Below, in pieces: positions 5,692 to 25,200 of a DNA stretch of 26,587 nucleotides; positions within the stretch are counted from its first letter, which is position 1; every line of letters begins with the position of its first letter. This stretch comes from a virus. The stretch covers positions 1 through 26,587 of IMG/VR virus record IMGVR_UViG_3300030060_001271; one strand, given 5' to 3'. The translations under genes and the position numbers were made by a program. Under the pieces are notes generated by a model. The model ran no database searches. It saw only the letters and a list, made by a program, of their open reading frames with translations, and was not told the origin of the DNA.

Positions 5692-5701
5692 AGGAAAAAA
5701 T

Positions 5702-6358: not shown

Positions 6359-6385
6359 GACCAAGGTGCTTTTGCTACCTGTTGA

Positions 6386-6418: not shown

Positions 6419-6428
6419 ACTTTAAAAA

Positions 6429-6456: not shown

Positions 6457-6476
6457 GATGTTAAACGGGGACATCT

Positions 6477-9263
6477 ATGGATACTCATACTTTTTTACAA
6501 AGGTCACTAGGAGATGAAGGGTACTATTGCCTTCTAGGTATTAAAGATAAAAAGAAATTAGTAACACGATTTTTTAGCGATGTAGAAGATTTAGTTAATA
6601 AAGCAAATGAATTAGATAGCCAAGGGTATGATTGTTTTTTTGGTTTAAGTACATTCACTGAACCTACACGTAGGACAGGAGATAATGCAAAGAAGTTAAA
6701 ATCTTTTTTTCTGGATTTAGATGTAGATACAGAAGACCCTAAAAAATTTAATTCTCAACACGAAGCCCTATCTGCACTACAAAGATTCTGCAGAAAACTT
6801 TCTTTACCCAAACCGCTTATAGTAAATTCTGGTAATGGGGTGCATGTTCACTGGCAACTAAAAGAAGCAGTGCTCAAGGAAGACTGGAAGATAGCCGCCA
6901 CAAGGTTTAAAAAAATAATAAAAGAACAGGGGTTATTAACAGATCCTGCAGTAACGTCAGATACCGCCAGAGTCTTACGGGTACCTCACACCCACAACCA
7001 TAAAAATGAACCTAAACAAGTTACTTTTTTCGGTACTCCATCTCTTGAACTCCATGATTTTGACCAGTTTGTATCTCTACTAGGGGTAGATACTACACCA
7101 GTACCTACGCCTATACCCGAAGGTGCTAATGCTGTGATGGCAAATCTAATGGGTAATAGAGAGAGTTATTTTAAAGACATACTAAAAAAATCAATGTCAG
7201 GAGACGGATGTGCTCAGTTAAAACATATTGTCGAAAACCCTAATGATATACCAGAACCCTTGTGGTTTAACGGTATATCTATTATCAAACACTGTGTTGA
7301 TGGTGGTAGGAAAGGCGCACATAAAATATCTTGTGGACACGAAAGTTACGACCCAGAAGAAACAGATACTAAGTATGACACAGTAGAATATGTTCATACA
7401 TGTGAAAGATTTGATGAAAACAACGAAGGCGTATGTGATAACTGTAAACACTGGGGTAAGATAAAAAGCCCTATCGTGTTAGGTAACAGGATAAAAGAAT
7501 CCGATCCTCACGTAGAGTCAAACTTCCCCATATACCCTAAACCTTATTTCAGAGGCGCGAATGGGGGTGTATATAGAAGGGAAAATAAAGACGGAGACAT
7601 AGAGGAAGTTCTTGTATACCACAACGACCTTTATGTAGTGGAACGTATTAGGGATGACATGGAAGGCGAATGTATAGTTATGGAGCTACGTCTACCTAAA
7701 GAAAAACCTCAAAAATTTACGATCTCTCTAAAAACTGTAGCTTCTCAGCAAAAATTTAAAGAAGCACTAGCTGAGAAAGGCGTATCAGTCTTATGGATAG
7801 GAGAATTAATGAAATATACAAATGCATGGATTAATGAATTGCAAGCCACTACCAGAGCTAAAAAAGCACGTAACCAATTTGGTTGGGTAAGTGATAACGG
7901 AATGGAGTTCCAAAGTTTTATACTTGGTGACAAAGAGATACGCACTGACGAAATATTAGAAAACCCACCCTCTGTACATACAGGTCAGTATTTTCATTTG
8001 TTTGGTAGTAAAGGTTCTTTAGAAGAATGGAAAGAGATAACAGATTATTATAACAAGGATGGGTTTGAATTACACCAGTACATAATAGGCACGGGTTTTG
8101 GGTCACCTTTAATGATATTTATGCCTGAGAAAGGGGCAGGATTAAACGTATATGGTAAGTCTGGTGTAGGTAAATCCACTGCCATGTATGCCGCAGCAGG
8201 TATATGGGCTAACCCTGCAAAATATTGCCTTAAATACGATGATACTCAAGCCTCTATTTGGGGTAGAGCAGAGGCATATAAAAACTTACCTTTATATATT
8301 GACGAATTAACTGGTAAAGATCCAAAAGCCCTTTCTAACTTTGCTTATAGTATAAGTGGTGGACAACAGAGGAACAGGCAGTCAAAAGATGCAAACACAG
8401 AACGATGGAGGGGCGATCCTTGTAATTTCATAATGGTGAGTAGTGCAAATGAAAGTCTAATACAAAAGATAAGCTCTGAAAAAGATAATCCAGCCGCAGA
8501 AGGTCAAAGGTTGGCAGAATACAAGGCAGAAGAATTATTAGGTAATTTAAACGACAGTGAAGGAGCTAGAGAGTTAGCTATGAAAATACAAGACGTTTAT
8601 GGGGTAGCAGGAGTGCCATACATACAACATGTTTTGGGGAATCTTAGTCAATACAGGACGGAAACTAGAGAGCTTCAGAAAAAGTTAGACAAAGCGGCAG
8701 GGCTACTCCCAGTAAATAGGTTTTGGTCTGCAAAAGCTGCTTGTTCTTTAATGGGTCTTCTTATAAGTAAAAAATTAGGACTTCACAATTTTGATATGGT
8801 TAAACAAAAAGAGTTTGTTATTGAACTTTTGAAATCGAATAAAGAATCTCTTGAAGAAATGGAGTCTAATGTAGAACAGCAAATATCGGATTATTTATCA
8901 CAATATTGGGGTAACATATTAAAAGTACACAGCACAGAAGATGGACGTAAGAAAGGGGAAGAAAGTTTAAATAACAATGGACTAGATCAATATATAAAGA
9001 TACCAGAAAAAGATCCTAGAACTTGGATAGTAGGTAGGTACGAACCTGATACAAAGTATTTGTATTTAAGGAAAAAACCTTTGAAAGAGTGGTGTATAAA
9101 GTACCAAATAGACTTTCTTTCAATGGAGAGAGATTTACTTAATCATCCTACTTTAGCAGGTGAAAAGGTACAAGCGTCTTTAACTAAAGGGGTTTCTTTA
9201 CGTACATCAGTGACAAGGTTAATTAGAATTAATATGGATTGTTCTACTATGGTAGATGCTTAA
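6477..9263 (+). CDS. primase-helicase fusion: PrimPol-like N-terminus, SF3/DUF927-like ATPase
   Basis: A 928-aa replication protein. The N-terminal domain looks like an archaeo-eukaryotic (PrimPol) primase: D80-L-D82-V-D84 for metal binding, SGNGVHVHW with H123 and H125, then D162 with R165 and R168 in the RVLRVP block. A putative zinc-binding segment follows (C286-x-H288, C309, C320-x2-C323). The C-terminal half is a P-loop ATPase with Walker A GKSGVGKST (560-568, K566) and Walker B LPLYIDEL (D609, E610), then an arginine-rich SGGQQRNRQS stretch like DUF927/DUF927-related helicases. It would prime and unwind DNA for the polymerase encoded at 282-2111. The ribosome binding site is GGGGA before ATG 6477. 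The gene overlaps the next by 8 bases. Confidence 0.9.
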   Translation: MDTHTFLQRSLGDEGYYCLLGIKDKKKLVTRFFSDVEDLVNKANELDSQGYDCFFGLSTFTEPTRRTGDNAKKLKSFFLDLDVDTEDPKKFNSQHEALSALQRFCRKLSLPKPLIVNSGNGVHVHWQLKEAVLKEDWKIAATRFKKIIKEQGLLTDPAVTSDTARVLRVPHTHNHKNEPKQVTFFGTPSLELHDFDQFVSLLGVDTTPVPTPIPEGANAVMANLMGNRESYFKDILKKSMSGDGCAQLKHIVENPNDIPEPLWFNGISIIKHCVDGGRKGAHKISCGHESYDPEETDTKYDTVEYVHTCERFDENNEGVCDNCKHWGKIKSPIVLGNRIKESDPHVESNFPIYPKPYFRGANGGVYRRENKDGDIEEVLVYHNDLYVVERIRDDMEGECIVMELRLPKEKPQKFTISLKTVASQQKFKEALAEKGVSVLWIGELMKYTNAWINELQATTRAKKARNQFGWVSDNGMEFQSFILGDKEIRTDEILENPPSVHTGQYFHLFGSKGSLEEWKEITDYYNKDGFELHQYIIGTGFGSPLMIFMPEKGAGLNVYGKSGVGKSTAMYAAAGIWANPAKYCLKYDDTQASIWGRAEAYKNLPLYIDELTGKDPKALSNFAYSISGGQQRNRQSKDANTERWRGDPCNFIMVSSANESLIQKISSEKDNPAAEGQRLAEYKAEELLGNLNDSEGARELAMKIQDVYGVAGVPYIQHVLGNLSQYRTETRELQKKLDKAAGLLPVNRFWSAKAACSLMGLLISKKLGLHNFDMVKQKEFVIELLKSNKESLEEMESNVEQQISDYLSQYWGNILKVHSTEDGRKKGEESLNNNGLDQYIKIPEKDPRTWIVGRYEPDTKYLYLRKKPLKEWCIKYQIDFLSMERDLLNHPTLAGEKVQASLTKGVSLRTSVTRLIRINMDCSTMVDA

Positions 9264-9485: not shown

Positions 9486-9512
9486 GCCCCGTGTAAAAGC
9501 GGGGCTTTTTTT
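9486..9512 (+). terminator. intrinsic terminator of the rightward block
   Basis: GCCCCG (9486-9491) pairs with CGGGGC (9500-9505) around an 8-base loop, followed by seven T (9506-9512). This is a textbook Rho-independent terminator for the + strand. On the - strand the hairpin is followed by AACGGGGAGAG, with no T tract, so it should act in one direction only. The T tract includes two bases of the stop codon of the convergent 2062-aa gene. Confidence 0.93.
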
Positions 9513-12500
9513 AATCAAATAAAGCATCAAACCCTTGCATATACTGTAGCCTACTTCTTTCAAATGCTAATTTATATATGGGGGACACCCTTACACCGTT
9601 GTGCATTTCAAGAGTAGTTTGTTTATGCCGCTTCATGGATTTATCTAAGGTGTCAAAACTTATAACTGCTTTGGGGAACCTACGCCTTACTTTTTTATTA
9701 AACTCTCTAATGTCTTTTGAATTTTCACGCCATGCTTCGTAGTCACCCATACGTCTTTTAATATGATTATTTTTTAATAGCCTCGTTCTTTCTCTATCTA
9801 TTTCATCAGATATGTTCTGTTCTTGTCTTGTCAATTCCTGTCTGAAGGTGAGTTCTTTGGGGGCAAAACCCATAGCGTTTGTAATGTGATCTGCCGCAGT
9901 CATTTCTGTAAATATGGGATCGCCACGTCTGGTTCGCACTCCTTCTCTGGCATAACGCCCAAACGTATTTCTATACAAATTAGTTACTGCTGGTGGTGTT
10001 ATTTGTTCAACACCTCTTTCTATCTCACCATTAAATAAATCTGAACCTCCTCTACCTAACCTTTTAAAAGTGCTTAAAGCAGGTCCACCAAAATGATAAC
10101 CAATCCACTCTTCCGTGCTACCATAATCTTCAAAAGAATCTTTAAACCTATTTTCTTGGAATACGAGTTCATTTAATTTTATTCGGTCAGATATATCTAC
10201 ACCTGTAGCAGCTACTAACGGACCTTTATAAAAACCTTCACCGATATTTTTTCGTACCAAAGTATCAAAGTCTTCCTCGTCATCAGGCATCATTATATCT
10301 GCCAGTAATTTAACGGCCCCGTATATAGGTATACCTTTTACCCCTGCAAATAGTAATGGTACCAAATGTAAGGTCGCTAGTTGGTTTCTGGCTATTTTTC
10401 TCTCTACTGCTGTTAAATTCTTGTAGTTTATGGCTTGCATAAATGTTTTAAACATGGTGTAGTACATTTGTAAACCGTAGTTTTTGTACATAAACGCCAT
10501 ACGTCCTAACCCGTTTTGCGATATCCTTGCACCTGTTTCTAACCTAGCACCACCGTTAACCTCTTGCGTTTTATACAAAGATTCTTTCGCAGCTCCGTCT
10601 AATTCTTCTGGTGTTAAATCCTCTACTCTAACTTTTTTTTCATCTGCCATACGTTGAGTTTCAAGATTGTATATGGCGAATAAGCTGACTTGCCTGTTAA
10701 GACGTTCTCCTGCGTTGAACATAACTGCTGAAGCAGCGGCAGTTCTATTTAATATTCGTAGAACAAGACCCTCTCTACTTACCCTCCCCGCTTCATCCAA
10801 ACCTAGAGCATCTGCTATATTTGTTTGGTAAAGTTGTCCTCTATCTCTGGCTACTGTCAGTAGTGGTAGGAGGCGATTTAATTCTTCTTTAAGTTTTTTA
10901 GGGGTATCCTCTTTTATAGTAAAACTTTCTACGGGCACTCCGTTACTGTCGTGGGTTCTGGTTATCTTAAAATACTTTTCAACTTGTAAAGGAGGACTGT
11001 TAAACAACCCTATACGCATTACCGTCCTGTAAGCATCCCGTATAGCTTTTTCAGTGTTCAAAGCACCGTATTTAGGTGCCAATATACTAAAGGCAAACAT
11101 GGGTATCTGAAACAGGTTAACAACTGCAGAAGATATGTTAAAACCTAAAGTGTATAAAAAAGCTCCTTGGTTTATAGGGGCAGCTAATCTTTGTATAGAG
11201 TCAATGTTCACACCCCGTGCAAATTCATTCCTTTTAGCTAAATCATTTACAATAGCATTGAGTGTTTCTTCATTTTTGTCTGGTTTATCTTCTAATATTT
11301 TTTTTCTTTCTGCTTCTATATCGTTTGTTATATCTCTTAATCTTCTGTTGTATTTTAGCTTTACAACTTGTCGTCCAGCATCAAAAGCCTTTGATCTCAA
11401 AGCATGTATAGAATCGGTTTGGAATCCCGCAACCCCTTTTCTCCTTTTCATGCTTTTTGCGAAAGATGTTTCTGGTAACTGGTCTATAAACAATTCTATT
11501 ATTTGATCTTCTACTGTCTTATCTACATTCGCTTTTCTTAACTCGTCTATAACCTGTGCTACAAAAGATGAAGGAGGCACGTTCTCAAAAAAAGATGTAT
11601 TCTGATCTAGGTTTCCATCACTTGTCCGTACATTATCAAACTGAGTTTTATCAGCCCTTAATGATTTAGCAATTTCATCACGTTCAGCTTTTGTCTGAAA
11701 GTGTCTTACTACATAAGCATCTTTATTATCTACCAGAGCTTTACCATCTTTGTCGGTTAACACGTTATAGATTAGTTTATATTTACCCTCTCGTGTTAAA
11801 GGAAAGTATTGATCTATGTTGGCCCTGTCGAGTATTTCTTTAAATACTTTTTTTACTTTTGAAATACCTTGTGTATTTGCTACAACTTTCCCATCCTTAT
11901 CGGTGGTCTCCATAGCTTTGTCTGTAACAGTGGATATCTCAGCTATAGTTCTTTGTAACTGTCTTCTGTACAGATTTAACATATCTTGGTACGCTTTTTT
12001 ACCCCCCGCACCAATAATTCTTACTTGCTTACGTTGCTTATTCCATATATCAATTTTTGTTTCCCCACCTTTTTCAACAAACTCAAGGTTGCCTTTATCA
12101 TCAGTATATTGTCGTATAGCTTCGCTTTTAGTAAGGAAAGGATTAACATCATAAATGGTTGAACCAAATTCACTATGGTATATAAGTTTATCCAGAGCTT
12201 CTTTTTTAGCCCTGCCGCTTTGTTTAGCCCAATTATTTACAGACTCCACTACTTCTCTTACTTCTTGATCTGATTTACCTGAGTCTCCTACCATCTTCTC
12301 CATGGTTTCATGTTGTAGTGCGGCTAGATTACCTAAAACGGTAGATTGTGTTGCGGCTATATCGCCCATACCTTGCCCACCGACTAACATGAGTCCTATT
12401 TTTTGTGGTAATCCTCTTGTAAGACCATTCCACGCATCTCTTACTCCAAAACTTGCTTCTCTTGCTGTCTTACTTATGATTTTTTGTACTCTACCTAAAT

Positions 12501-15500
12501 TATTCAAAGTCTCTTGGGGGTCCAAACGGAAATAGGCTTGCGTGTCTCTTAAATTTCTGTCTGCCGAAAGCGTTGAGAATATAGCCATGTCTAACTCAGA
12601 CATGGTACGAATAGCAGGTTTACCAAGTAAACGCCTTACAAAATTACTTACTATCCTAAAAAACTTCTCCAAAGGATTGACAGGTTCTCTAAGATGTAAA
12701 TCAGCTAGTTCTTTTTGGAAAGAAGGTTCTGCAAATGAATAAGCAACAAATTCTTCTAAGGATGCTCCTGCCCCATTGGGGTCTAAGTCTCCCTTAACTT
12801 GTTTGTACAAGTTCATTAACTGTCTAGTCACCGGGTGACTTTTGTTTTGTAAATTTAAAATCGTTGCTGCGTGAGTCATTTCATGCAGAACAGTCTGCAC
12901 TGTAGGACCGAATTGGTTGTTCATGTTTATGAATATAGTATCTTTACTAGGCACATAGGAACCTGCACCCGTTCCACCAAATCGTATCTTAGTATCACCT
13001 GCTACTTTTAATAACGCTTTGGCTACATCTTGTACGTTTTTATCTTTCGCATTTTTACTTATATTTTCTAATAATCCCTTTAAATTATTTTTTGCAACAG
13101 CGGTCATTTGAGGATTGGATAAAGGCGTATCAAGTTCAGTTCCTAATTTACGAGCCACATAGCCTACTACTGTTCTCTGGGCATCAATATCAGTTTCGCC
13201 AAATCCTAAATCTGCGACTTCGTATGTGCCATCATCTATACCCTTCTGTATTTTTTTAAGTTCCTGTAACAGTTGAGTCCTAGTAAGTCTGCTAAGTGGA
13301 CCCTTGGGTATATATAAACTTAATGTTTTCTCTGCTTTCTCTAAAACCCTTCTTGCAGCCCCAGCTTGTGTAGATAATTTTTGTCTCTTATCAGGATCTT
13401 TTTCTCTGTCAAGTTTTATATTAGCGTTTTCTAAAGCCACTGACGCATCATTTACAGCTTTAATTGCAGCTTTTGTTTTATCTCTTCTGTCCTCTTCTAA
13501 CTGCTCATTTAAGGGCTTAGTTTTTGTCTCAGTTACAGGTTGTTTAGCTATAGTTTTCCTTGCTTTAGTTGAATCTTCTAGCCCTTTTGCAGTATCTTTA
13601 GGTATAAAAACAGGTCCAGCTTTTACACCAGTTTTTATTTTCTTTGTCGTTACTTCTTTTGCTTCCCTTGCTTCTTTTGCTTTTTTTGCGTTGTCTATCC
13701 TAACCTGTAATATTTTAGAGCCTTGATTAGTTAAATTTTCATTTACCCAGCTTTCTGCATCTTTAAATGCCCTACCTTGTCCACCTATAACTTTTTGTTC
13801 CAATTCTCGCAAAGGATTAATTTCTTCGCTATGAAACTTCTCCATAATAGCCCTTCTAAGTTCCTTTCTTTTAGTAGAATCAGGACTAAGATTATTAAAT
13901 TCTTCTAGGGTTACCTTCGCTTTTTTCTTACCGTATGTGACCTGTGCTAACTTGTCAGCAAACGCGGGATCTGGAGTTTCTATTTTAGTTTTATCGTATT
14001 TTTCTGGTTCAGCTTCTACTTTTTCTTTTGTTATTAACGTTGGATCGTCTTTAGATTTTAAAGTAATTAACTTCCCATCTTCATCCATAAAAGTAGGAAA
14101 AGACTCTTTAAATTTAGATTCATCAATTTTATATTCAGCTATCGCAGTAAACGCATCGTCTGCTCTTTCAAATTGCTCAAAAAATCCTTTTGCATTTTTG
14201 TTTCTTTTTCCGACCGGATCGGTGGTTACAAGGGATAGAATTTTCTCTCTATCTGTTGTATCTTTTAATTCTTCTTTACCATAAGGTATTGTTTCGGGAT
14301 ATGTTATCGTTCCTCTTTCTGTAATCCCTGTACCTGCGTCTCTCATTCTTGGCTGGTCTTCTGGTGTTTTATCTTCGACCAAATTAATTGGTTTTAATGG
14401 AGGACGGATATCTCCTTCTCGTGCATTAAAGCTATCAGTATCTGTTCTAGCAGGTTCCACTCCCTCTCCGACAACTCCGGCAGTTTCTGTAACAGCTTCT
14501 CCTGTTGGGGTTTTTGTAGTAACTGAAACGCCAACTCCACTTCCTGTTTCGTCAGTTTCTGCAGGTTTGGTAATAACATCAGTAGTTTCTCCTACGTCGT
14601 CTGTTTTAGCCGCACTGAGCGCAACTTCTTCTTTGTCACCAGCTTCTCCCGTTATGCCAGTTGTTCTATCACCCGTTTCAGTCGCACCGAGCTCACTTTG
14701 AAACTTTTCTTTTGACCTTCTTCCTTCGTCAAAAGATTTCTGTACGTTTGGATCTTCTCTAAGTTTTTTGTCTACTTCTGTTATTATTTCTTTATCCGTA
14801 ATAACATCTGTCCCTGCTAAATCTATATCATCGACAGTTTCTTTAAAAGTATCGTCATCATCAGGTGTAACACCCCTTGCTCTACCTTTTATAAATACAT
14901 CTGCAAGGGCTTGTAATATTCCACCTGCACCTGCACCAATAAGCCCCTCTTCAAGCACACCTGAATCAATAAGTTCTCTTGTGGGGTTATATCCACGCTC
15001 GTTAAGATTTTGTAGTATACCTGCGGCAGCTTCTTGAGCACCTTCAGCAAGGCTTGTGGCACCAGCTCTTTGTACTCGGCTGGTTATATCTGTAATGTCT
15101 TCAGGGGCAAGTTTATCTAATACTTTTTGTATAGGTGTAATCTGGAATGCTTTTGCTAGTTTACCTAAAGGAGTTATTTCTGTTGCCCCAATCAATGTAC
15201 CTCTAAGAGCAGCAGCACCTCTCTCGTCTTCAGTAGCACCAAAAGCACGGGCACGTTCACTAGCCTCACCAGCACCAGCGGCAGCAGCAACAGCACCAGC
15301 AACAGGTAAAGCAGCGGGACCGAGTGCAGCAGCAGGGAGTAAAGCACCGATAGAACCAATGCCTGCCGAAAGTTTATAGGCTATAGAATCTTCATCAGCT
15401 TCGTCTGCACCTAGACTCTCTCGTATGGATTCCCCCGCTGCTTGTATTTTTCTCCTTGATCTAAGCTCTGCGTCTTCTTCTAAAGCAGCGGCAGCACCTA

Positions 15501-15699
15501 GTGCTGCGGATTCAAATAACCCTGTAGCACCAGATACAAGTCCTGAGTAGATATTACTTAATATACCAGAGTCGTCTTCTATGGATGTTCGCGGTAAACT
15601 AGGCAGCCCACGTCTTGCTCTTTCTGCAAGGACAATTTCTCGAATACGGTCTTCTCTTCTTTGCCGTTCTTCAAGAATAATTTCTTGTAGGGAAGCCAT
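9511..15699 (-). CDS. large polyvalent internal virion protein with HExxH peptidase
   Basis: A 2062-aa protein, the largest in the window and last in the late block. In order: an Arg/Glu-rich N-terminal helix, a Gly/Ala-rich hydrophobic stretch at about 110-153, an acidic Thr/Glu/Gly low-complexity linker at about 280-470, Lys-rich helices, and a zincin domain with H939-E-M-T-H943 followed by EEFVAY, whose Glu may be the third zinc ligand. A long helical region with hydrophobic patches at about 1500-1540 and 1767-1805 and a basic C-terminus follow. The layout matches the large polyvalent (LPD-type) proteins of short-tailed phages, which are packaged in the virion and ejected into the host. 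No lysozyme or transglycosylase motif is seen. One base separates its ATG from the previous stop; AGGA is the ribosome binding site. Assignment of the C-terminal region to a particular LPD family is uncertain. Confidence 0.8.
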   Translation of the reverse strand: MASLQEIILEERQRREDRIREIVLAERARRGLPSLPRTSIEDDSGILSNIYSGLVSGATGLFESAALGAAAALEEDAELRSRRKIQAAGESIRESLGADEADEDSIAYKLSAGIGSIGALLPAAALGPAALPVAGAVAAAAGAGEASERARAFGATEDERGAAALRGTLIGATEITPLGKLAKAFQITPIQKVLDKLAPEDITDITSRVQRAGATSLAEGAQEAAAGILQNLNERGYNPTRELIDSGVLEEGLIGAGAGGILQALADVFIKGRARGVTPDDDDTFKETVDDIDLAGTDVITDKEIITEVDKKLREDPNVQKSFDEGRRSKEKFQSELGATETGDRTTGITGEAGDKEEVALSAAKTDDVGETTDVITKPAETDETGSGVGVSVTTKTPTGEAVTETAGVVGEGVEPARTDTDSFNAREGDIRPPLKPINLVEDKTPEDQPRMRDAGTGITERGTITYPETIPYGKEELKDTTDREKILSLVTTDPVGKRNKNAKGFFEQFERADDAFTAIAEYKIDESKFKESFPTFMDEDGKLITLKSKDDPTLITKEKVEAEPEKYDKTKIETPDPAFADKLAQVTYGKKKAKVTLEEFNNLSPDSTKRKELRRAIMEKFHSEEINPLRELEQKVIGGQGRAFKDAESWVNENLTNQGSKILQVRIDNAKKAKEAREAKEVTTKKIKTGVKAGPVFIPKDTAKGLEDSTKARKTIAKQPVTETKTKPLNEQLEEDRRDKTKAAIKAVNDASVALENANIKLDREKDPDKRQKLSTQAGAARRVLEKAEKTLSLYIPKGPLSRLTRTQLLQELKKIQKGIDDGTYEVADLGFGETDIDAQRTVVGYVARKLGTELDTPLSNPQMTAVAKNNLKGLLENISKNAKDKNVQDVAKALLKVAGDTKIRFGGTGAGSYVPSKDTIFINMNNQFGPTVQTVLHEMTHAATILNLQNKSHPVTRQLMNLYKQVKGDLDPNGAGASLEEFVAYSFAEPSFQKELADLHLREPVNPLEKFFRIVSNFVRRLLGKPAIRTMSELDMAIFSTLSADRNLRDTQAYFRLDPQETLNNLGRVQKIISKTAREASFGVRDAWNGLTRGLPQKIGLMLVGGQGMGDIAATQSTVLGNLAALQHETMEKMVGDSGKSDQEVREVVESVNNWAKQSGRAKKEALDKLIYHSEFGSTIYDVNPFLTKSEAIRQYTDDKGNLEFVEKGGETKIDIWNKQRKQVRIIGAGGKKAYQDMLNLYRRQLQRTIAEISTVTDKAMETTDKDGKVVANTQGISKVKKVFKEILDRANIDQYFPLTREGKYKLIYNVLTDKDGKALVDNKDAYVVRHFQTKAERDEIAKSLRADKTQFDNVRTSDGNLDQNTSFFENVPPSSFVAQVIDELRKANVDKTVEDQIIELFIDQLPETSFAKSMKRRKGVAGFQTDSIHALRSKAFDAGRQVVKLKYNRRLRDITNDIEAERKKILEDKPDKNEETLNAIVNDLAKRNEFARGVNIDSIQRLAAPINQGAFLYTLGFNISSAVVNLFQIPMFAFSILAPKYGALNTEKAIRDAYRTVMRIGLFNSPPLQVEKYFKITRTHDSNGVPVESFTIKEDTPKKLKEELNRLLPLLTVARDRGQLYQTNIADALGLDEAGRVSREGLVLRILNRTAAASAVMFNAGERLNRQVSLFAIYNLETQRMADEKKVRVEDLTPEELDGAAKESLYKTQEVNGGARLETGARISQNGLGRMAFMYKNYGLQMYYTMFKTFMQAINYKNLTAVERKIARNQLATLHLVPLLFAGVKGIPIYGAVKLLADIMMPDDEEDFDTLVRKNIGEGFYKGPLVAATGVDISDRIKLNELVFQENRFKDSFEDYGSTEEWIGYHFGGPALSTFKRLGRGGSDLFNGEIERGVEQITPPAVTNLYRNTFGRYAREGVRTRRGDPIFTEMTAADHITNAMGFAPKELTFRQELTRQEQNISDEIDRERTRLLKNNHIKRRMGDYEAWRENSKDIREFNKKVRRRFPKAVISFDTLDKSMKRHKQTTLEMHNGVRVSPIYKLAFERSRLQYMQGFDALFD
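12871..12885 (-). other. HExxH zinc peptidase site in the 2062-aa protein
   Basis: The codons read H-E-M-T-H at residues 939-943, set in the helix VLHEMTHAATI. About 45 residues later comes LEEFVAYSF, which supplies a Glu at a distance typical of gluzincin-type third ligands. This is the only candidate enzymatic site I can find in the protein. Confidence 0.75.
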
Positions 15700-15700
15700 T

Positions 15701-17425
15701 TTATTTTCCTAAAGCGTAGTTTTCTAAGGCTTCTTGTAGGTCATTTATAGTCGGTTCTAAATCTTGTAACCGTTCTTTGAGGGCCAGATACTGTGATAAT
15801 TGCTCTATTTCGTCTCTGTCACGTAGTGGTTCTTCTTTTGATTTAATAAGAAGCCTTTCACCTTCAGGAACAACAGTCAATATTGTTTGCTCAATTTCTT
15901 GTTGTACAGACAACAGTTTTTCTAGGGCATTCCCTATGTTAGCTCCTTTTTGTACATCATATAATAATTCTTGTAATTCTTTTTTATTCTTCTCGGCTAT
16001 AACTCGTATCTTGTTTGTTATATTATTTTGATTTTGTTCTACTATTAATTGTGCCTGCCTATCAGCCGCTAAAATATCAGCATTACTAAAATCACCTAAT
16101 GCTTTTAAAGCCTCTCTTTTGTTTTTAGTGGCTGCTTCAAACGCTCTCTGTCCTAGTTCTGAACCTTTATTAGCTTGTAGTTGGTCAGCGTCAAGTCTTT
16201 TATTTTCTTTCTCAATAATATTCTCTTGACCTTTAAGTATGGCATTGTCCATAGCAGCTCGTTGTTTCGTTCTAGCTCTAACACCACCAATTAGCCCTTG
16301 ACCAATTCCACCCCCACCAGTCATTATACCTTCTAAAAATGCTTCTCTTTCAAGGCGTTTACGATTTTCTGGTGAGTATACTCTAGCTAGTTGAGATTCA
16401 AGACCTTCGACCCTACCCTCTCTAATTTTATCGTATTTACCTCTTCTTGCTCTTTTATCCGCAAATTTAGCAAAATCTTCCATATCTTTTTTAGGATCTA
16501 TTTCAGCCATTTTTGTAAGGGGATCTGTTATTCCAGCTCCCATAGCAGACGTAACTCTATTTTGTTGTATACTGGGATCTGACCCCAATATTGGAGGCGT
16601 AGGAGCACCTGTAAGAATATCACTTTGGAATTTCTCTATTGGAGTTGGCGGCCTTATTCCTCCCGGTCCTGTTTGGTCAATTTGTGCAGCTAGTCCTAAT
16701 ATTCTATCTCTTTCTTTAGCAGCAAGCTTTTTAGCTCTAGAATCTGTTATTGATTTTGTAGCAGCCTCCCTTCTAGCATCTAAATTAGCCGCCTGTTCTT
16801 CTGCTTTCCTAGCACTTTCTTCTGCTTCCATAGCACTTTTTTGTTTCATTCTTCCCCTAGATGTAATAGACGCAATATCCCTAGGATTTCTCCCAAACAT
16901 GCTTATTAATTGACTAGGGTTATAGACCTTCGCTTCTATATCTTCGAGTGTTATATTTGACCCTGTCCTCTCATTATACTTTTTTAGTTCTTCTTGAGTT
17001 ATAGGACCACCTGTTTGATATCCTAATATGCCGCCACTAGACATTTTCTGCATAGCAGGACGTGGTAATGGCATGAGACCACCCTTTGCTCTCATCTCTG
17101 GAAGTTGTGGTCCTTTAGCAGCACTTTGTAGATTTTTGCGTTGCATTACTTCTCTTTGTGCCATAATACCTTTAGCTTGATCTGCTAATTCATTTTTAGT
17201 CATAGCCAATAATTTTTGTTCTTGTTGATCTACGACCTGATAAGGTTCTTTTTCAGGAGTATTTAATAACTGTTGATTTGCCACTGCTTGTCTTTGTTGG
17301 ATAAGTATTTGATTTGCAAGAGCATTTATCACTGACGGGTTATCTTGATAACGTTTCTGTAGTGCTTTAGGGTTTGACCTATAAACATCTACGGTATTAT
17401 CGACTTGAGAAGCTATTCCTTGCAT
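15701..17425 (-). CDS. coiled-coil virion-type protein, probable internal/ejection protein
   Basis: A 574-aa helical protein, rich in Gln, Glu, Lys and Ala, with no enzyme motif. Residues 111-145 carry two GGI/GGL blocks (MRAKGGLMPLP at 111, MSSGGILGYQTGG at 128). Long heptad-like helices follow at about 195-240 and 430-570. The GGI blocks are also present in the neighbouring 575- and 1221-aa proteins. Position between tail genes and the polyvalent protein suggests a structural or ejected virion component; this is inference from order and composition. ATG at 17425 follows GGAGAATATTAA, a ribosome binding block identical to that of the preceding gene. The gap to the previous stop is 15 bases. 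Confidence 0.75.
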   Translation of the reverse strand: MQGIASQVDNTVDVYRSNPKALQKRYQDNPSVINALANQILIQQRQAVANQQLLNTPEKEPYQVVDQQEQKLLAMTKNELADQAKGIMAQREVMQRKNLQSAAKGPQLPEMRAKGGLMPLPRPAMQKMSSGGILGYQTGGPITQEELKKYNERTGSNITLEDIEAKVYNPSQLISMFGRNPRDIASITSRGRMKQKSAMEAEESARKAEEQAANLDARREAATKSITDSRAKKLAAKERDRILGLAAQIDQTGPGGIRPPTPIEKFQSDILTGAPTPPILGSDPSIQQNRVTSAMGAGITDPLTKMAEIDPKKDMEDFAKFADKRARRGKYDKIREGRVEGLESQLARVYSPENRKRLEREAFLEGIMTGGGGIGQGLIGGVRARTKQRAAMDNAILKGQENIIEKENKRLDADQLQANKGSELGQRAFEAATKNKREALKALGDFSNADILAADRQAQLIVEQNQNNITNKIRVIAEKNKKELQELLYDVQKGANIGNALEKLLSVQQEIEQTILTVVPEGERLLIKSKEEPLRDRDEIEQLSQYLALKERLQDLEPTINDLQEALENYALGK

Positions 17426-17440: not shown

Positions 17441-19168
17441 CTAATCTACGATAAAATCATCTTCTTCGTTTGGGTCTTGTATAACTAATTGATCTGAAGG
17501 AATACCCATAGCCTCCCCAATAGCTACTTGTGACTCAGTTGGTTTTATATCGCCACCTAATTGGTCAAACAGATACCCTAACCCACTTCGAGTAAATAGA
17601 TCCCTTAGTGATTGTCCCGTTGCCAAAGAAGAAGCTAAATCACTAGGTGTTGAATATACTGTAGATTGTGCTTCTAATGGTAAGCCTTGTAATAAAGATT
17701 GCATGTACTGCACTTGTTTATATGGGAAATCACGTTCTTCTTCAAACTGTGCCAAATCTCCTGCTATACGTTGTTGTTCTATATTACGTCTAGCTTCTCC
17801 AGCTTTAGCCTGTCCCCCAAGAACATCAAACCCAAACCTATTACGAGCTTCTTGTTCTTTATTAAATTGAGCTAATGCTTTGTCATAGGCATCACGATAC
17901 CCTTCACCCGTTATTTTGCTTTGTAGGTCAGCTAAATTACGTAGTCCTTCTGATTCCATAATGGCTTGGCGAGAACCACCAAATGCACCTGCTCTTGTCA
18001 ACCTACCTGCTGTTTTTTGACGTTCTATTTCTGCTAATCTTGCTGCTTCATCTATCTGTGGTTGTAACGCAGCTTGCACATAGGGGTTCATGTATTGTTG
18101 GGCCGCTGCAGCATCAAAAGTTTTTACTCCCATATTAGACACATTAGGTTGTAACTCTCCAATACCTGTAAATGCTTTTTCCTGTAACGGATCTATGTCA
18201 GCAGTTAATGCACCTTCATAGGCTTCATATGGCATGTCTGCTAACGCCATACCTCTACCTAACATATCTGTCACATACGGTCCCGCATAACTAGATAAAG
18301 AACTTTCTGTACCTAGATTCATATTAACCGGAGCTTCATTAGTATCAGAGCTTCCACTTGGATCAGGCATAGGAAGGTCTGTACCTGTTACGGTATTATC
18401 TGCACCAGTATTTACAGTGTTTCCGGTGCTAAATCTAGCTATACCCCCACTCGCCATTTTGGGCATAAATTTATCAGGGTTTATTTCTATTCCTTGTGCT
18501 TTTCTACCCGTGCGTGCTTGTCGCACGTCATCCATCATATTATGTAATTGTTTAGCACCTGCATCAGAATTACCATTACCAAGGTGACTTACTACATCAG
18601 CAGGTATAACAAATTCACCGTCACTTAAACGAGCTTCTTGTCCACCATCAATACGTGCAGGTACAACATCTGCCATGCCATCAGTGGAACCACTTAGATA
18701 ACGCCCTTGAGCTAGTTTGGCTATACCGCCTTGTGCCATAGTAGGTCTTTCCATTAAATTTCTTTGGGCTAATGCTGCTCTTTGTGCTGTAGCCGTTTTT
18801 TGAGCTTCTTGCACAGTAGGAGGTTTTTTATTCTCAATATCATCAGATACTTGTGCAAACTGTGCATCAGTGAAGTATCTTTGCCCTTTACTCCCTCCTA
18901 CTCTATCCGGATCTATAGGCACTCGTTCACGTACAAATTTATAATCCGGTATTTTTCCTTGGTATCCCAACATAGGTCTAAAAACATTAGGGTCAGCACT
19001 GGGTAATATATTTAATCTATTAGCAACACTGCCCAACCCAGAACCCAATAGAAGATCAAGCGTTGTATTGCCTGTAGTTCCTGTAGTAAAATAGTCACCC
19101 GCAGCATCAAGTGCATTTGAACCTAAATCAGTCACAGTGCTGGTAAAGTCATTCCACCAATTTGACAT
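17441..19168 (-). CDS. virion-type protein with GGI and LSDGEFVIP motifs
   Basis: A 575-aa protein. The N-terminus (MSNWWNDFTSTVTDLG) is followed by a Gly/Leu-rich region. GGI blocks occur at MAQGGIAKL (144) and MASGGIARF (238). Between them is RLSDGEFVIPADVV and a helix with DAGAKQLHNMMDDVR, a segment that I recognise as recurrent in structural proteins of environmental short-tailed phages. The C-terminal half has long helices rich in Gln, Ala and Arg, including AGRLTRAGAFGGSRQA, and ends in an acidic tail (EEDDFIVD). No catalytic site is visible. It is probably an internal or tail-associated virion protein. Its ATG overlaps the previous stop (TAATG) after AGGAG. Confidence 0.75.
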   Translation of the reverse strand: MSNWWNDFTSTVTDLGSNALDAAGDYFTTGTTGNTTLDLLLGSGLGSVANRLNILPSADPNVFRPMLGYQGKIPDYKFVRERVPIDPDRVGGSKGQRYFTDAQFAQVSDDIENKKPPTVQEAQKTATAQRAALAQRNLMERPTMAQGGIAKLAQGRYLSGSTDGMADVVPARIDGGQEARLSDGEFVIPADVVSHLGNGNSDAGAKQLHNMMDDVRQARTGRKAQGIEINPDKFMPKMASGGIARFSTGNTVNTGADNTVTGTDLPMPDPSGSSDTNEAPVNMNLGTESSLSSYAGPYVTDMLGRGMALADMPYEAYEGALTADIDPLQEKAFTGIGELQPNVSNMGVKTFDAAAAQQYMNPYVQAALQPQIDEAARLAEIERQKTAGRLTRAGAFGGSRQAIMESEGLRNLADLQSKITGEGYRDAYDKALAQFNKEQEARNRFGFDVLGGQAKAGEARRNIEQQRIAGDLAQFEEERDFPYKQVQYMQSLLQGLPLEAQSTVYSTPSDLASSLATGQSLRDLFTRSGLGYLFDQLGGDIKPTESQVAIGEAMGIPSDQLVIQDPNEEDDFIVD

Positions 19169-22100
19169 TAATATTCTCCTAATATCTGTAATAATCTTAA
19201 CAGATCATCATTGCGTTCTATAATACCACCTTTTTGTTTTTTTGCTATGGGATTAAAACTTGGAAAATTTACATTATTTTGTATAACGGGTGCTTGTGCA
19301 GTCCTAGCCCCGTATGGAGAAGCAAACAACGCTTCCTGTTGTGGGTTTGCAAATATACTATCTCCACCAATATCATACATATACCGTATCTGTGCTGGAC
19401 CCATTTGTTGAGTTTGTGCTACCCCCGGTTGGGCTAAAGTTGATATTTGGCTGATTAAATTTTCAAGTCTATCTCTGTCTCTTTGTCTACCTTCCTCATC
19501 ACCTACGCCTACACCCTCACCTTCACCTGTGCCTTCTTTAGTATCGTCTCCAATCACATCATCTTCGACGCTATCTCCTTTTCCTGTAACACCATCGGTT
19601 TCACCCTCAGTCTCACCTACATCTCCTTCTCCACCTGTTGTAGGATCAAGCTGGTCCTCTGACCCTACCTCGTCACCAGTGCTAGTGCCAGTATCTGCTG
19701 TTTGTTCTGCCGCATCTTTTGCCGCTTGTTCTGCAGCTATTCTTTCAGCTTCAGCCGCTTGTTCTGCAGCTATTCTCTCTGCTTCAGCTTTTGCTTCAGC
19801 TTCTGCTATTCTTTCAGCTTCAGCCGCTTGTTCTGCAGCTATTCTTTCAGCTTCAGCCTTCGCTGCTTCTTCCGCTGCTATTCTCTCCGCTTCAGCTTTT
19901 GCTGCTTCTTCTTTCGCTACCCTTCTTTCTTCTTCGATCCTTCTTGCTTCTTCTAATGCACGATTAGCTTTCTCTTGATTGTCTGCTTCAGAGGCTATAT
20001 CCGGTAATACAACTTCGCTACTAAAATCACCATCGTCCCCTACAATGTTGTCGCCCATAGGGTCTAAATTAATATTTTCTGTGTCAGTATCTTCTGTGTC
20101 AGTATCTTCTGTGTCAGTATCTTCTGTGTCAGTGTCTTCTGTGTCAGTGTCTTCTGTGTCAGTGTCTTCTGTGTCAGTGTCTTCAGGAGCAGGAAATTCT
20201 TGAGCTGTCATATTATCAAAATCATATACCGTTATACCATCAACACCCAACACTCTAAATGTGCCTGTTTCCCCCCATATTGCACCTTCAGACTGTTCTA
20301 AAATTTCTGACGGTACTACACCCTCTCTTTTATCTCTTGGTATTACATCATCATCAGGATTATTAGGGTTCCTACCAAATATATCTTCAAGGGTATCAAG
20401 TCTGTCTTCTGGATTAGAAGTTCTATCCTCACCATCTTTATTTTTTATTACGTTACCATCTTTATCTATTCTTGTAAGAACTAAATCTGGTTCGTAACTA
20501 CCGCCTACAGTATCACGATCCTCTATAACATCAGTACCAGTATCTTCTACAACGTCTTCTGTAGTACCAGTATCTTCTGTACCAGTATCTTCTGTACCAG
20601 TATCTTCTATAGTGCCAGTATCTTCTGTACCAGTATCTTCTGTAGTACCAGTATCTTCTGTACCAGTATCTTCTATAGTGCCAGTATCTTCTGTAGTGCT
20701 AGTATCTTTCACTACTGCATCGGTGACTGAAGGATCGGCACCGCTATCCCCTGTCCCTTCTCCTGTAGTCTCTTTTGGTGCCCCACCATCAGATTCATCT
20801 ACTTCAAATACAGGAGGTTTTACATCTAAAGGAGTTTCTAAATCGGGGTCTCCTATATCTACAGGCGGTTCTTCAGGTGGAATTATTGTTGGTTCTTCTT
20901 TATCAGGCGTGTCAGGTTGTTCACCTGTTGGAGTTACTACTTCACCTTGAGGGTCTGTTACTACCACCTCTCCTGTTTCGGTATTTTCAACTTCTACAGT
21001 TGATTGTCCTGTTACCGGATCTATGCCTGTATCAATATCAAATTCACTTATTTTACCTACAGATGCTGCTATATCATTTATAGAAGGGGCATCTGCACCA
21101 TATTCACCTGAAGCTATTCTTGTTAATACATTAATTCCTTGAATAACATTCCCAAGGTTTAAGTCTGTAGATACGTCTGCTACATCTGTTACATTTGACG
21201 GATCAAGTGCCTCAATATCTGATAACTTTTGCCCTAGCTCTGTCTCAGCAAAATCCGCAGAAATAACTCCCGATATGTCATCTACTATAGGATCTGCTGC
21301 TCTAAGAACATTTGCAGCTTCTTCTGTTAATTCAATCCCATTGTTAGTAAAAAATGATATTCCTTCTTCAGGATCGTATTTAGCTACATTGATAGCATCT
21401 CCAAAATCTTCCTCGCCAGTGGCTAGTCTTAATGCTGTAGACACAGCTCGCATTGGAGGGAAAAATACAGAAGATACATCTACGGCAAACCTTACAGCGT
21501 CCATAAGATTATCATCTCTTTCAGGAGGTATTTTCACGGCTGCTATAGTATAAGAACCTACTGGAGCAGTGCCTCCTGAAAGGTCAACTAATTGGATAGT
21601 GCTGCGATCTTCTACCCCATACATTTCCGGGTTAAACACATCCCCCGGTAGTTTCATATATACCTTATTTTCAAAGGCAATAGGTCCAGTAAGATCCTTA
21701 AATTGGGGTAATAAAGAATTGTATACAGACATATCTGTTTCTTTTACTTTATCTAGTCCCGATTCTGCAACCAAATAATTAAATGCTGTTCTATTAGCAG
21801 TTCCACTTGCATAATCATATGCTCCTGACGCTCCTTCAAGTTTAGGTTCTGCATATAAGGCAGCAGGAGAGTCCCCATAATCAGGATCGTCCCCACCTTG
21901 CATTTCAGCTATGCTTCTTTGGGCATCAAATATTCTTTCTAGCTTTTCAAAGTTTTGATCAAAAATAGGAGAAGAACTATAGGCACTCCAAGCATCTATA
22001 ATATTAAATTTAGATCCGTCTTTGGCAACGGCACCGCTGTCTTTGAATTTATCCAAGTCTCCTATGGCAGTTTCATAAAGAACATTAGTCATTACTTCTC

Positions 22101-22833
22101 CAGTAGTGGGATCGTAAGACCTGCCTACCTCATTAGAATCTCTAAAACTAAACGAAGAACCATCTGGACCTTCATCAACAGCACCTACACTATAACCATA
22201 AGCATCTTCATAGCCCATGTTAAGAAAATCAGCAGTGCCATCATTACTATAGTCAAGACCTTCAGACGAAAGATAATTAAGAACATCGTCGTCTAGTTGT
22301 GATGCGTAGTATTCACCAAAGACAGTTTTGTTATCGTCTTGCATGGCAGCAATAGCAGCAGGTTTGTAATTTTTATCACTATCCCCATCAGTTAGATGAA
22401 CTCTTTGTTCTACACCGTTTATATATACAGGATTGCCTTCTTTATCTAAAACTTCTCCCATATGATTTATTCTATAACCCTGATCGTTTTCTATATATTT
22501 GTCATAGTCAGGGTTTGTAGAACCTTCAAAAAATAAACTACGCCCATCCTCATCTTTTCCTTTTTTCACTTTAAAAGATGAATAGTCAATGGTGCCATAT
22601 AAATCATCAAAAACTTTTTCTTGGACGGGAGCTTTATTTCTTGCATACAGCAAGGCATCGGCAGAACTAACTTTGCCATCTTGATTTAAATCAAATATCA
22701 TTTTATCGTCTTGAAGTGGACCTACTCCCCTTTCATACCCGTCAAGTCCCACAGCACTTTTCATAACATCTAACTCTGAATAACCTTGGGATAGTAATTC
22801 TCCAATAAGTCCTGCAAGAATTTCGTCGTCCAC
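19168..22833 (-). CDS. 1221-aa acidic repeat protein with EF-hand/dockerin-like loop
   Basis: A very acidic putative virion protein. Residues 48-59 (DLNQDGKVSSAD) form a complete calcium-binding loop of EF-hand/dockerin type. A long Asp/Gly-rich region of unknown fold follows, then two stretches of EDTGT-type and EDTDT-type pentapeptide repeats, then an alanine-rich coiled coil of 11-residue repeats, a further Gly/Thr/Glu linker, and a C-terminal segment with KGGI at 1201-1204. This tripartite pattern suggests a long flexible extended fibre or tether; function unknown. The start is GTG (22833-22831), overlapping the previous stop as TAGTG, with AGAGGTGA upstream. No ATG candidate lies closer to that ribosome binding site. 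I cannot assign a family. Confidence 0.75.
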   Translation of the reverse strand: MDDEILAGLIGELLSQGYSELDVMKSAVGLDGYERGVGPLQDDKMIFDLNQDGKVSSADALLYARNKAPVQEKVFDDLYGTIDYSSFKVKKGKDEDGRSLFFEGSTNPDYDKYIENDQGYRINHMGEVLDKEGNPVYINGVEQRVHLTDGDSDKNYKPAAIAAMQDDNKTVFGEYYASQLDDDVLNYLSSEGLDYSNDGTADFLNMGYEDAYGYSVGAVDEGPDGSSFSFRDSNEVGRSYDPTTGEVMTNVLYETAIGDLDKFKDSGAVAKDGSKFNIIDAWSAYSSSPIFDQNFEKLERIFDAQRSIAEMQGGDDPDYGDSPAALYAEPKLEGASGAYDYASGTANRTAFNYLVAESGLDKVKETDMSVYNSLLPQFKDLTGPIAFENKVYMKLPGDVFNPEMYGVEDRSTIQLVDLSGGTAPVGSYTIAAVKIPPERDDNLMDAVRFAVDVSSVFFPPMRAVSTALRLATGEEDFGDAINVAKYDPEEGISFFTNNGIELTEEAANVLRAADPIVDDISGVISADFAETELGQKLSDIEALDPSNVTDVADVSTDLNLGNVIQGINVLTRIASGEYGADAPSINDIAASVGKISEFDIDTGIDPVTGQSTVEVENTETGEVVVTDPQGEVVTPTGEQPDTPDKEEPTIIPPEEPPVDIGDPDLETPLDVKPPVFEVDESDGGAPKETTGEGTGDSGADPSVTDAVVKDTSTTEDTGTIEDTGTEDTGTTEDTGTEDTGTIEDTGTEDTGTEDTGTTEDVVEDTGTDVIEDRDTVGGSYEPDLVLTRIDKDGNVIKNKDGEDRTSNPEDRLDTLEDIFGRNPNNPDDDVIPRDKREGVVPSEILEQSEGAIWGETGTFRVLGVDGITVYDFDNMTAQEFPAPEDTDTEDTDTEDTDTEDTDTEDTDTEDTDTEDTDTENINLDPMGDNIVGDDGDFSSEVVLPDIASEADNQEKANRALEEARRIEEERRVAKEEAAKAEAERIAAEEAAKAEAERIAAEQAAEAERIAEAEAKAEAERIAAEQAAEAERIAAEQAAKDAAEQTADTGTSTGDEVGSEDQLDPTTGGEGDVGETEGETDGVTGKGDSVEDDVIGDDTKEGTGEGEGVGVGDEEGRQRDRDRLENLISQISTLAQPGVAQTQQMGPAQIRYMYDIGGDSIFANPQQEALFASPYGARTAQAPVIQNNVNFPSFNPIAKKQKGGIIERNDDLLRLLQILGEY
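19721..19894 (-). repeat. 11-residue alanine/glutamate repeat tract (33-39 bp units)
   Basis: Five consecutive units of 33, 33, 36, 33 and 39 bases encode variants of AEAERIAAEQA. The units at 19721-19753 and 19823-19855 are identical over 33 bases. The hendecad (11-residue) periodicity fits a straight or slightly right-handed coiled coil rather than a classic heptad. All length differences are multiples of three. Confidence 0.88.
20081..20185 (-). repeat. 15-bp tandem repeat, seven units (EDTDT)
   Basis: Seven back-to-back 15-base units occupy 105 bases. On the + strand the first three contain GTATC and the last four GTGTC, and the array is otherwise uniform apart from its final base. Each unit adds five residues (EDTDT), so copy-number changes keep the frame. 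Confidence 0.93.
20533..20709 (-). repeat. 15/18-bp tandem repeat (EDTGT with optional T or I)
   Basis: Nine EDTGT pentapeptides and one degenerate KDTST unit are arranged with occasional extra Thr or Ile codons, mixing 15- and 18-base spacing. The order of the longer and shorter units itself repeats, which suggests duplication of multi-unit blocks. All units are in frame with the 1221-aa protein. Confidence 0.9.
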
Positions 22834-23153
22834 TAGGTCACCTCTAGTATGCTGGCAACTACGTGTAAACGATTGGCAGTAGCAGCGGTAACTTTTAATA
22901 TCTCACTGGCCTGCACAACAAGAGGTGCCGAAAGTAGTTCTACGGTGGCATTTGCACTAACAGCTTTGGTATTAAATAGGCTAAATACATCACTACCAGA
23001 AGTGATAGTGAGAGTGATTGTATCTGCATTCCCTGAGTCTTCCGATACTAATATAGATTTTACTATACCAGTAGTTAGCGCAGCACAAGTGTACAATGTG
23101 GTTACGTTAGTAGTAGACAGGTCTACCTTTGCATTTACAAACGTGTTAGACAT
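22833..23153 (-). CDS. small beta-rich structural protein
   Basis: A 106-aa protein beginning MSNTFVNAKVDLSTT. It reads as alternating beta strands rich in Val, Thr, Ser and Ala (TTLYTCAALTTGIVKSILVS, DTITLTITSGSDVF, ATVELLSAPLVV), as in small phage head- or tail-decoration domains. I know no name for it. The start is taken at 23153, where ATG overlaps the previous stop (TAATG). No good Shine-Dalgarno sequence precedes it, so translation likely depends on coupling to the gene before. An upstream TTG at 23168 would add five residues but has no better signal. Confidence 0.8.
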   Translation of the reverse strand: MSNTFVNAKVDLSTTNVTTLYTCAALTTGIVKSILVSEDSGNADTITLTITSGSDVFSLFNTKAVSANATVELLSAPLVVQASEILKVTAATANRLHVVASILEVT

Positions 23154-23350
23154 TAGCTTAAAAACCAACTAGCAGCGTCAGATTTATCTGATAACACGCT
23201 ACTACGCAAAGCAGAATCTAACTGATTAAAGTAAATTCGTAACACATTGTTAAACTGGTCAAAAGAGGCTTGGTTATATTCTTTTGGGGGTGAGGGAAGT
23301 GATGGCGCACGAAACGTTAAATTGTATTGAGTAAAATCTACTGTAGCCAT
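23153..23350 (-). CDS. small tail-associated protein, unknown function
   Basis: A 65-aa protein (MATVDFTQYNLTFRAP) with a Pro-rich turn (APSLPSPPKEY) and a helix containing FDQFNNVLRIYFNQLDSAL. Short proteins with this Pro turn and FNxVLxxYFxQLD helix recur just after the tail-hub gene in environmental short-tailed phages, so a tail-assembly role is plausible. The ATG overlaps the 616-aa gene stop (TAATG), with GGAGAAGG as ribosome binding site; a longer frame starting upstream would lie inside the previous gene and lacks a comparable signal. Confidence 0.78.
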   Translation of the reverse strand: MATVDFTQYNLTFRAPSLPSPPKEYNQASFDQFNNVLRIYFNQLDSALRSSVLSDKSDAASWFLS

Positions 23351-25200
23351 TACCTTCTCCCATCTGGTCGCATGTCTAATCTTGGAGAGCCAAATTGCCA
23401 AGTTGTACCAAGTCCTGTTGATTCTACTTTAAAACTTATCTGTCTACCCCGTATACGTAAAAATACTTGATCTGTAAATTTTTCTATAGGCACAATTGCA
23501 GTTCTTGTTACCGTGCCTTCACTATTACCACTTTCAGATAGAGGTGAATTATATCCTGATCCTGAATTTTTTAACGGCAGTAAAGACATGGTAGCAGCGG
23601 GAGACTCTGCTGTAGATCCATCAAAACTTATATCCGGTAGCATACGAGATACAAGCATAAATTTATGCCCGTCTTCTAAATCAAACTGTGCAGAAGTTAT
23701 AGATGCTGATATAGCCGCCACTGTAGCTGTCTCATTATCGTCAACTCCAACCTCATGTTCTACTATTTTATTATTGCTTGTAGCAGCTATTGGGTTATCT
23801 CTTATACCAGAATCTAACCATGCAGTCCTAGTGATATTGCCGTAGTACCAGATATTTTCAACATAGTTATAGATAACATATCTATTAGTTGTTGTACTAT
23901 CTGCCGATGGATAGAACCACCATACCTCATTGAATGCCTCATTTGTCCCTGCAAATATCTGGGCTACGTTATCAGTATTTATATCTGTAAATATATATTT
24001 TTTAACATCGCAACGAAGATTTCTTACAGTGCCATCATACATGTAAAATGTTTCTTTACCCATCCAATAGGTAACATTACTGGCAACTGCTGCTGCATTT
24101 TGGGATATAATTGATGTGTTCTCTCCAACAATTTGTGCAGTCCATACTATAGGAGCACCAACATACTGCATGGAGTATAAAGAATTATCTGTCCATATTA
24201 ATATTTCTTGTTTAGTTTGTAGAGCCGCTATTATCTCTGAACCACGCGAAAACCGTAAACTACCTGCCTGATTTGTAGCTGCAGGTGTCCAATTTGTAGC
24301 ATCTTCTTGATCCGACCATCGCACTAACATAGGGTCTTGTGTTGATGATCCCACTGGATTAGCACCAAAACAAAACACAAAGCGGTTTATATCTGATATA
24401 AGAATAAAATTTTGTACAGTGGGTACACCAGAAGCTCCAGATTCTGCACTTAAAAGGGTAGCTCTTACATTTAACGCATCACTTTCAGAAGCATCCCAAA
24501 GAAATAAAGATCCTCCTCTTGCACCAAATATTAAATCTTCACCAAAGTTACCTTGGCTCCACAAACGAAGTGCATCAGTGCCTGTAGCACCAATACCCCA
24601 AACACCTTCACTCCAGCCCCCCGCACCCCAACCTTCAAGAGGTACTTCCGTTTCAGGACCAACATTTATTTGGTATGCTGCTGATACTGTACCCCCACCA
24701 GTAGCACTAGAAGACGCTGCCTCAGAAGCTGTTATGGTATATGTATTACCTGTATTATAAGTTATTTGAAACTCACCATTTAAAGTCAGTCCACCGACAG
24801 CAGATGCACTACTAAAAGTAACAAAGTCACCGTCTATATACCCACCGTTAGCGTCTGTTACTGTGACAGTGGTAGAACCACTAACTGTTTGAAAAGGATT
24901 TGATAACGACACAGTGGCCCGTAGAGGTGTAATATCATAATATGCACCTCCACGTTCTATATAAAACTTTAGATGAGTTCCTACACCTGTGAGTTTTAGA
25001 CTACCTAGTGTTACCCAAGAATGTAACGATCTAGCAGTTCCTAGAAACGTGTTATCAGATATTCTCTGCCAACCACCTATTTTTTCTGGTGTGCCCTGAC
25101 GAAATCTTACTTTATCACTTTCATACCAGCCACCCTCACTGGTATAACGAGTATTTTCACGATTAACGCCCGGTTTGAATGCTATTTTTTGTAATGGCAT
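23350..25200 (-). CDS. tail hub-like protein, P22 gp10-type beta-propeller candidate
   Basis: A 616-aa beta-rich protein. The N-terminus (MPLQKIAFKPGVNRENTRYTSEGGW) is followed by a Gly/Trp-rich repeat pattern (GWGAGGWSEGVWG) and blades such as VRWSDQEDATNWTP and ILIWTDNSLYSMQYVG. These features, including the FKPGVN opening, match the gp10-like packaged-DNA-stabilisation/tail-hub proteins of P22-type short-tailed phages. Residues about 100-181 form an inserted beta domain (TVTVTDANGGYIDGDFVTFS to YQINVG). The protein would seal the portal and carry the tail needle or fibres. ATG at 25200 follows the lysozyme gene after 7 bases. Alternative: a different propeller-type tail protein. Confidence 0.75.
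   Translation of the reverse strand: MPLQKIAFKPGVNRENTRYTSEGGWYESDKVRFRQGTPEKIGGWQRISDNTFLGTARSLHSWVTLGSLKLTGVGTHLKFYIERGGAYYDITPLRATVSLSNPFQTVSGSTTVTVTDANGGYIDGDFVTFSSASAVGGLTLNGEFQITYNTGNTYTITASEAASSSATGGGTVSAAYQINVGPETEVPLEGWGAGGWSEGVWGIGATGTDALRLWSQGNFGEDLIFGARGGSLFLWDASESDALNVRATLLSAESGASGVPTVQNFILISDINRFVFCFGANPVGSSTQDPMLVRWSDQEDATNWTPAATNQAGSLRFSRGSEIIAALQTKQEILIWTDNSLYSMQYVGAPIVWTAQIVGENTSIISQNAAAVASNVTYWMGKETFYMYDGTVRNLRCDVKKYIFTDINTDNVAQIFAGTNEAFNEVWWFYPSADSTTTNRYVIYNYVENIWYYGNITRTAWLDSGIRDNPIAATSNNKIVEHEVGVDDNETATVAAISASITSAQFDLEDGHKFMLVSRMLPDISFDGSTAESPAATMSLLPLKNSGSGYNSPLSESGNSEGTVTRTAIVPIEKFTDQVFLRIRGRQISFKVESTGLGTTWQFGSPRLDMRPDGRR

Follow-up and report, generated by a model that had tools for sequence, protein, structure and literature searches.

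The minus-strand gene P0001 belongs to a short-tailed phage from an aquatic setting and encodes a real, long and highly acidic protein. The protein is probably an internal virion protein that is ejected into the host, and its gene would open an ejection cassette of four genes (E1–E4) in a podovirus-like phage. This placement was derived from the gene order, the depletion of cysteine, the xGG motif together with a tape-measure signature, and a hydrolase domain in four relatives. The first-pass annotation had described the product of a late-operon gene as modular, acidic and repeat-bearing, and had left its role open (fibre, internal tether or decoy). The description held, with all named modules present; on the evidence just listed an internal, ejected protein is favoured, and the fibre and decoy lose support. 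The window, meaning the whole stretch of DNA analysed, is a virus record of 26,587 bases, in a single piece without a completeness estimate, and may therefore be a fragment.

The reading frame starts with a GTG at position 22833, is open throughout as proposed earlier (no strand had been given), and closes with a stop codon ending at 19168; many stops were found when the same interval was read on the plus strand. The protein has a pI of 4.1, acidic residues outnumber basic ones by 192, and cysteine is absent. Residues 1–560 were compared with the counterpart in a relative (L007; 1234 aa against 1221 aa, 85% in the best segment) and gave a dN/dS of ~0.065, so P0001 is a gene under purifying selection. 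No match to P0001 was obtained in Pfam-A, PHROGs, the PDB or 50,697 phage records, in agreement with the earlier failure to name a family, and no confident whole-length match to a characterised tail fibre or capsid protein was returned from the families, the PDB or the phage records. When the first 698 aa were used as a profile query, only close relatives were retrieved. Structure prediction, which had been suggested as a check, was run with AlphaFold on residues 1–560 and gave no usable model (pLDDT 34).

Table 1. Positions of P0001, its modules and the neighbouring genes in the window.
Feature	Position	Strand	Basis
P0001 / 'E1', giant acidic protein	19168..22833	minus	open frame, 1221 aa, GTG start
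EF-hand/dockerin-like loop DLNQDGKVSSAD, residues 48–59	22657..22692	minus	canonical 12-mer pattern; Dockerin_1 below cut-off
EDTGT-type pentapeptide array, residues 714–758	20560..20694	minus	15-bp tandem repeats at 20564–20695
EDTDT pentapeptide array, residues 884–918	20080..20184	minus	15-bp tandem repeats at 20073–20184
Alanine-rich 11-residue repeat (probable helix), ~residues 957–1046	19696..19965	minus	33-bp period, 19721–19898
Conserved C-terminal tail, residues 1133–1221 (MYDIGG.SIFANPQQEALFASPY...KGGII...LLRLLQILGEY)	19171..19437	minus	alignment; sole part alike in distant E1
xGG motif KQKGGII, residues 1199–1205	19219..19239	minus	motif search
P0005, P22-gp10-like 'stabilization' / tubeB protein	23350..25200	minus	phrog_3287 E=2e-72; 37% to DSL-LC04 stabilization protein
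P0006, small protein encoded between P0005 and E1	22833..23168	minus	phrog_1276 E=2e-6; conserved synteny
P0002, 575 aa, tape-measure-like signature and helical domain 'E2'	17441..19168	minus	aligns across two adjacent MinM2 ORFs
P0003 'E3', 574 aa, xGG motifs, 0 Cys	15701..17425	minus	motif and composition counts
P0004 'E4', 2062 aa, 0 Cys	9511..15699	minus	DarB-like C-terminal part, HEMTH metallopeptidase-like segment

The EF-hand 12-mer pattern occurred by chance in 2.7% of shuffles of the Asp-rich P0001, and Pfam Dockerin_1 scored 16.8 bits (E=0.008), under the cut-off of 22.9; a duplicated calcium loop with a Pfam score above the cut-off was not present. On these two measures DLNQDGKVSSAD is plausibly a single EF-hand-like loop, which may bind calcium, and is not a proven dockerin. 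An EF-hand-like module was also seen ~145–180 residues before the end of many relatives; homology of the N-terminal loop of P0001 to it is not claimed, since the alignment was limited to the loop alone (22 columns, probability 16%). Both pentapeptide arrays and the alanine-rich repeat recognised earlier were recovered as tandem repeats in the DNA (Table 1). Outside residues 701–1050 most of the sequence is 96–99% identical to L007, in which an EAERIAAEQAA-type array stands in place of the EDTGT array and a DQDQEQ-type tract in place of the EDTDT array; the segment between the two arrays is 82% identical. Since both arrays are swapped and most flanking sequence is conserved, they look like interchangeable spacers, with a sequence that seems free and a hydrophilic character and rough length that seem to be kept.

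Genes on the minus strand of the window are ordered holin, 140-aa ORF, lysozyme, P22-gp10-like P0005, P0006, P0001, P0002, P0003 and P0004, which puts P0001 in a block after gp10/tubeB with the other candidate ejection genes. The IMG/VR loci share the order gp10-like, P0006, E1, E2, E3, E4. A like order of large genes after the gp10-like gene was found in DSL-LC04, MinM2, HTVC023P and HTVC027P (with extra genes in some), and a similar arrangement with three large genes in CRP-902. The position after a gp10-type tail gene is shared with P22 gp7/gp20/gp16 (P22 order: gp10, 26, 14, 7, 20, 16) and T7 gp14/gp15/gp16, and in PhiGT1 the fast-diverging internal virion protein genes are placed beyond tubeB, the gp10 type (PMC10386132). 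P0002 is cysteine-free and consists of the signature at residues 144–236 (window 18461–18739) and a conserved helical E2 domain (~residues 280–530); AlphaFold predicted long helices (pLDDT 50) and gave no usable model for most of the protein, and a PDB fold search with it returned no significant match. The C-terminal part of P0004 resembles the antirestriction protein DarB (phrog_10089, E=1e-46) and its HEMTH segment gave a weak metallopeptidase match below the cut-off (DUF6782, E=8e-4); P0004 is likely an ejected multi-domain protein. A replication block (DNA polymerase A, PD-(D/E)XK nuclease, SNF2-type helicase and DUF927 primase-like protein) occupies 264–9263 on the plus strand.

P0001 is no isolated oddity. 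At 78 loci (window and IMG/VR) an ORF that is nearly always acidic, and large when complete, lies in the interval from the P22-gp10-like gene to the next conserved gene, and these E1 proteins form a family without a name, seen here only in uncultivated viruses. The loci are partly redundant (38 representatives at ~60% identity) and many are contig fragments; relatives of P0002 in IMG/VR numbered 197. Complete E1 ORFs span 428–2577 aa, with a body that changes freely (hydrophobic Ala/Gly stretches, coiled-coil-like repeats or acidic arrays) and a conserved tail. A Hydrolase_2 (cell-wall hydrolase) domain was detected within the body of four of 33 relatives (L054, E=7e-19), a likeness to T7 gp16. 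Many relatives carry an extra ~160-aa ORF directly before E1 (e.g., L016 246–734, L019 2807–3316), where the gap between P0006 and E1 is ~450 nt. A search of genomes for hosts identified no firm one: the 13 loci obtained were mostly weak and, with few exceptions, came from binned or single-cell assemblies.

The tail, with ~60 conserved residues, is present in all 78 upstream ORFs including P0001 (70 fit a strict pattern, and in the remaining 8 it was recognised by eye), a count that is not fully independent because loci were fetched mostly via the downstream P0002 and some via P0001 or its tail; body, length and cysteine content were unselected. Significant matches between P0001 and distant members were confined to residues 1129–1221, the one exception being a match to L046 in the repeat region. 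A tblastn search of phage records with the C-terminal region and the tail consensus returned no match, and thus revealed no relative of the tail among cultivated phages. The C-terminal motif that had been noted as common to the neighbours was confirmed: KQKGGII in P0001 is accompanied by MAQGGIA and MASGGIA in P0002 and by RAKGGLM and MSSGGIL in P0003. The stricter form xAxGG[ILMQ] occurred in 21/38 E1, 13/28 E2 and 27/29 E3 relatives (shuffled sequences gave 2.3, 1.4 and 1.3) and in none of 27 gp10-like proteins; KQKGGII fits the looser form only, and E1 tails of relatives read YAEGGQVED, YAKGGQV and FAKGGLIR.

E1–E4 of the window contain no cysteine in 4432 aa, and the other window genes counted (gp10-like and flanking) do contain it. 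Representatives of E2, E3 and E4 in the relatives have none in ~75,000 aa, 34 of the 38 E1 representatives are cysteine-free, and gp10-like proteins average 6.2 per 1000. Counts in four other phage genomes were 0 in 10,706 aa, and in CRP-902 1 in 1742. The depletion extends outside low-complexity stretches (1 in 10,554 aa, L086 left out). Paired cysteines were observed in a DPCLDPAYAAENPEICGT-type repeat of E1 in L086 (6005–7990), L088 (2868–4853) and fragments in L087, L089 and L090; a full-length E1 of this type has ~30 cysteines beside otherwise cysteine-free cassette genes, and these copies count against a strict no-disulphide rule. P22 gp7/gp20/gp16 and T7 gp15/gp16 are cysteine-free like P0001, P22 gp14 has 4 and T7 gp14 has 1. 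The P22 tail needle gp26 and P22 scaffold likewise have none, so the absence is not exclusive to ejected proteins, and the cysteine-free composition of P0001, though like that of ejection proteins, is no formal criterion. No cysteine rule was found in the literature, in a search that reached few subscription papers.

A related composition was found in tape-measure proteins. Four sampled from long-tailed phages (L118, L119, L120 and L121) have no cysteine in 7403 aa (neighbouring genes, 84 in 11,513 aa), and all carry a GG motif just before the signature, reading FAEGGKVRGPGT..SDSI, FAEGGQVRGPGT..SDSIPA and alike. Of the signature GG..GPGT.TSDSIPA.LS..EFV, P0001 has the xGG motif, which recurs in the next two genes as xGG[IL] and opens the full signature (SDxIPA..GEFV) near the start of P0002, its sole location. 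In DSL-LC04 the module matching P0002 residues 144–236 ends a single 'tail tape measure protein' (WJZ48115.1, 759 aa), and it matched 351 phage records, most among the matches listed being named tape measure. WJZ48115.1 resembles P0001 in its slot between a small structural gene and E2, its tandem repeats and its lack of cysteine, and as one fused gene it corresponds to E1 together with the initial part of P0002; unlike in the window, no E1-type tail was found in DSL-LC04 by tblastn. P0001 is thus tied to tape-measure proteins through its C-terminal GG motif, a short link for the E1 tail, and through the signature encoded downstream. It is also large, with hydrophobic stretches in many relatives. 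It differs from them in having no full signature and in its family's length range, which would argue against a ruler role, and no tail-tube or tail-chaperone gene was seen among the window proteins scanned, in a record that may be a fragment. Tentatively, a class of short-tailed aquatic phages might use a split tape-measure protein for ejection, with the E1 body and the P0002 signature as separate genes and the body as an interchangeable acidic spacer crossing the periplasm.

In T7, gp15 and gp16 build a periplasmic conduit, and lysozyme domains are exchanged between ejection proteins (PMC8954989). By analogy with T7, P0001 would be stored inside the head, dock by means of its C-terminal tail and act in the periplasm: it would be driven through the portal into the bacterium together with the DNA and aid envelope crossing. 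The conserved tail with its GG motif may dock P0001 to E2/E3 at the portal. An unstructured, negatively charged, cysteine-free body could be readily threaded through the channel and would not stick to DNA; it could form no disulphides in the periplasm and may serve as an extended spacer. The N-terminal region of E1 might act in the envelope, with an EF-hand-like loop in P0001 and a cell-wall hydrolase inside the body of some relatives. P0001 is unlike podoviral ejection proteins in its more acidic, repeat-built body and its cassette of four large genes, and no ejection-family match by sequence or profile was detected in PHROGs, Pfam, the PDB or phages.

An extended tail fibre or outside tether, with an N-terminal part that binds the host surface, repeats as a stalk and the C-terminal tail anchored to the phage tail, would suit the late operon position and the repeats, which are typical of stalks. 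It is nevertheless unlikely: L007 has a separate cysteine-containing fibre-like ORF upstream, cysteine depletion and the xGG motif are common to the cassette neighbours and not to the gp10-like tail gene, and E1 relatives contain the hydrolase domain. No fibre-family match outside repeats was found for P0001. Tail-fibre PHROGs did match the relative L033, over its GDT repeat only, and these matches were rejected as repeat composition.

A giant tail needle plugging the gp10-like hub is less probable still. The P22 needle gene directly follows gp10, gp26 is cysteine-free and E1 has helical repeats, but E1 is 2–11 times the length of gp26 (233 aa), most of P0001 is acidic and part of it low-complexity, and no needle-family match to it was found in PHROGs or the PDB. 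The motif common to E1, E2/E3 and tape-measure proteins and the enzymatic domain in E1 relatives also argue against a needle. Equally improbable is an assembly factor, a scaffold or chaperone-like acidic protein absent from the final particle: the acidic, repeat-rich, fast-changing body and the cysteine-free P22 scaffold are consistent with it, whereas in relatives E1 lies far from the head genes, shares its motif with neighbouring cassette genes and can carry a hydrolase.

As an internal virion protein, an anonymous giant ORF at many loci of uncultivated viruses gains a testable role. The shared motif and the absence of cysteine tie podoviral ejection proteins to tape-measure proteins, and consecutive large late genes whose products lack cysteine and carry GG motifs offer a simple mark for ejection cassettes missed by profile searches. 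If the split tape-measure reading is true, proteins that exit the particle before the DNA would, in short- and long-tailed phages alike, be marked by a GG motif together with a lack of cysteine.
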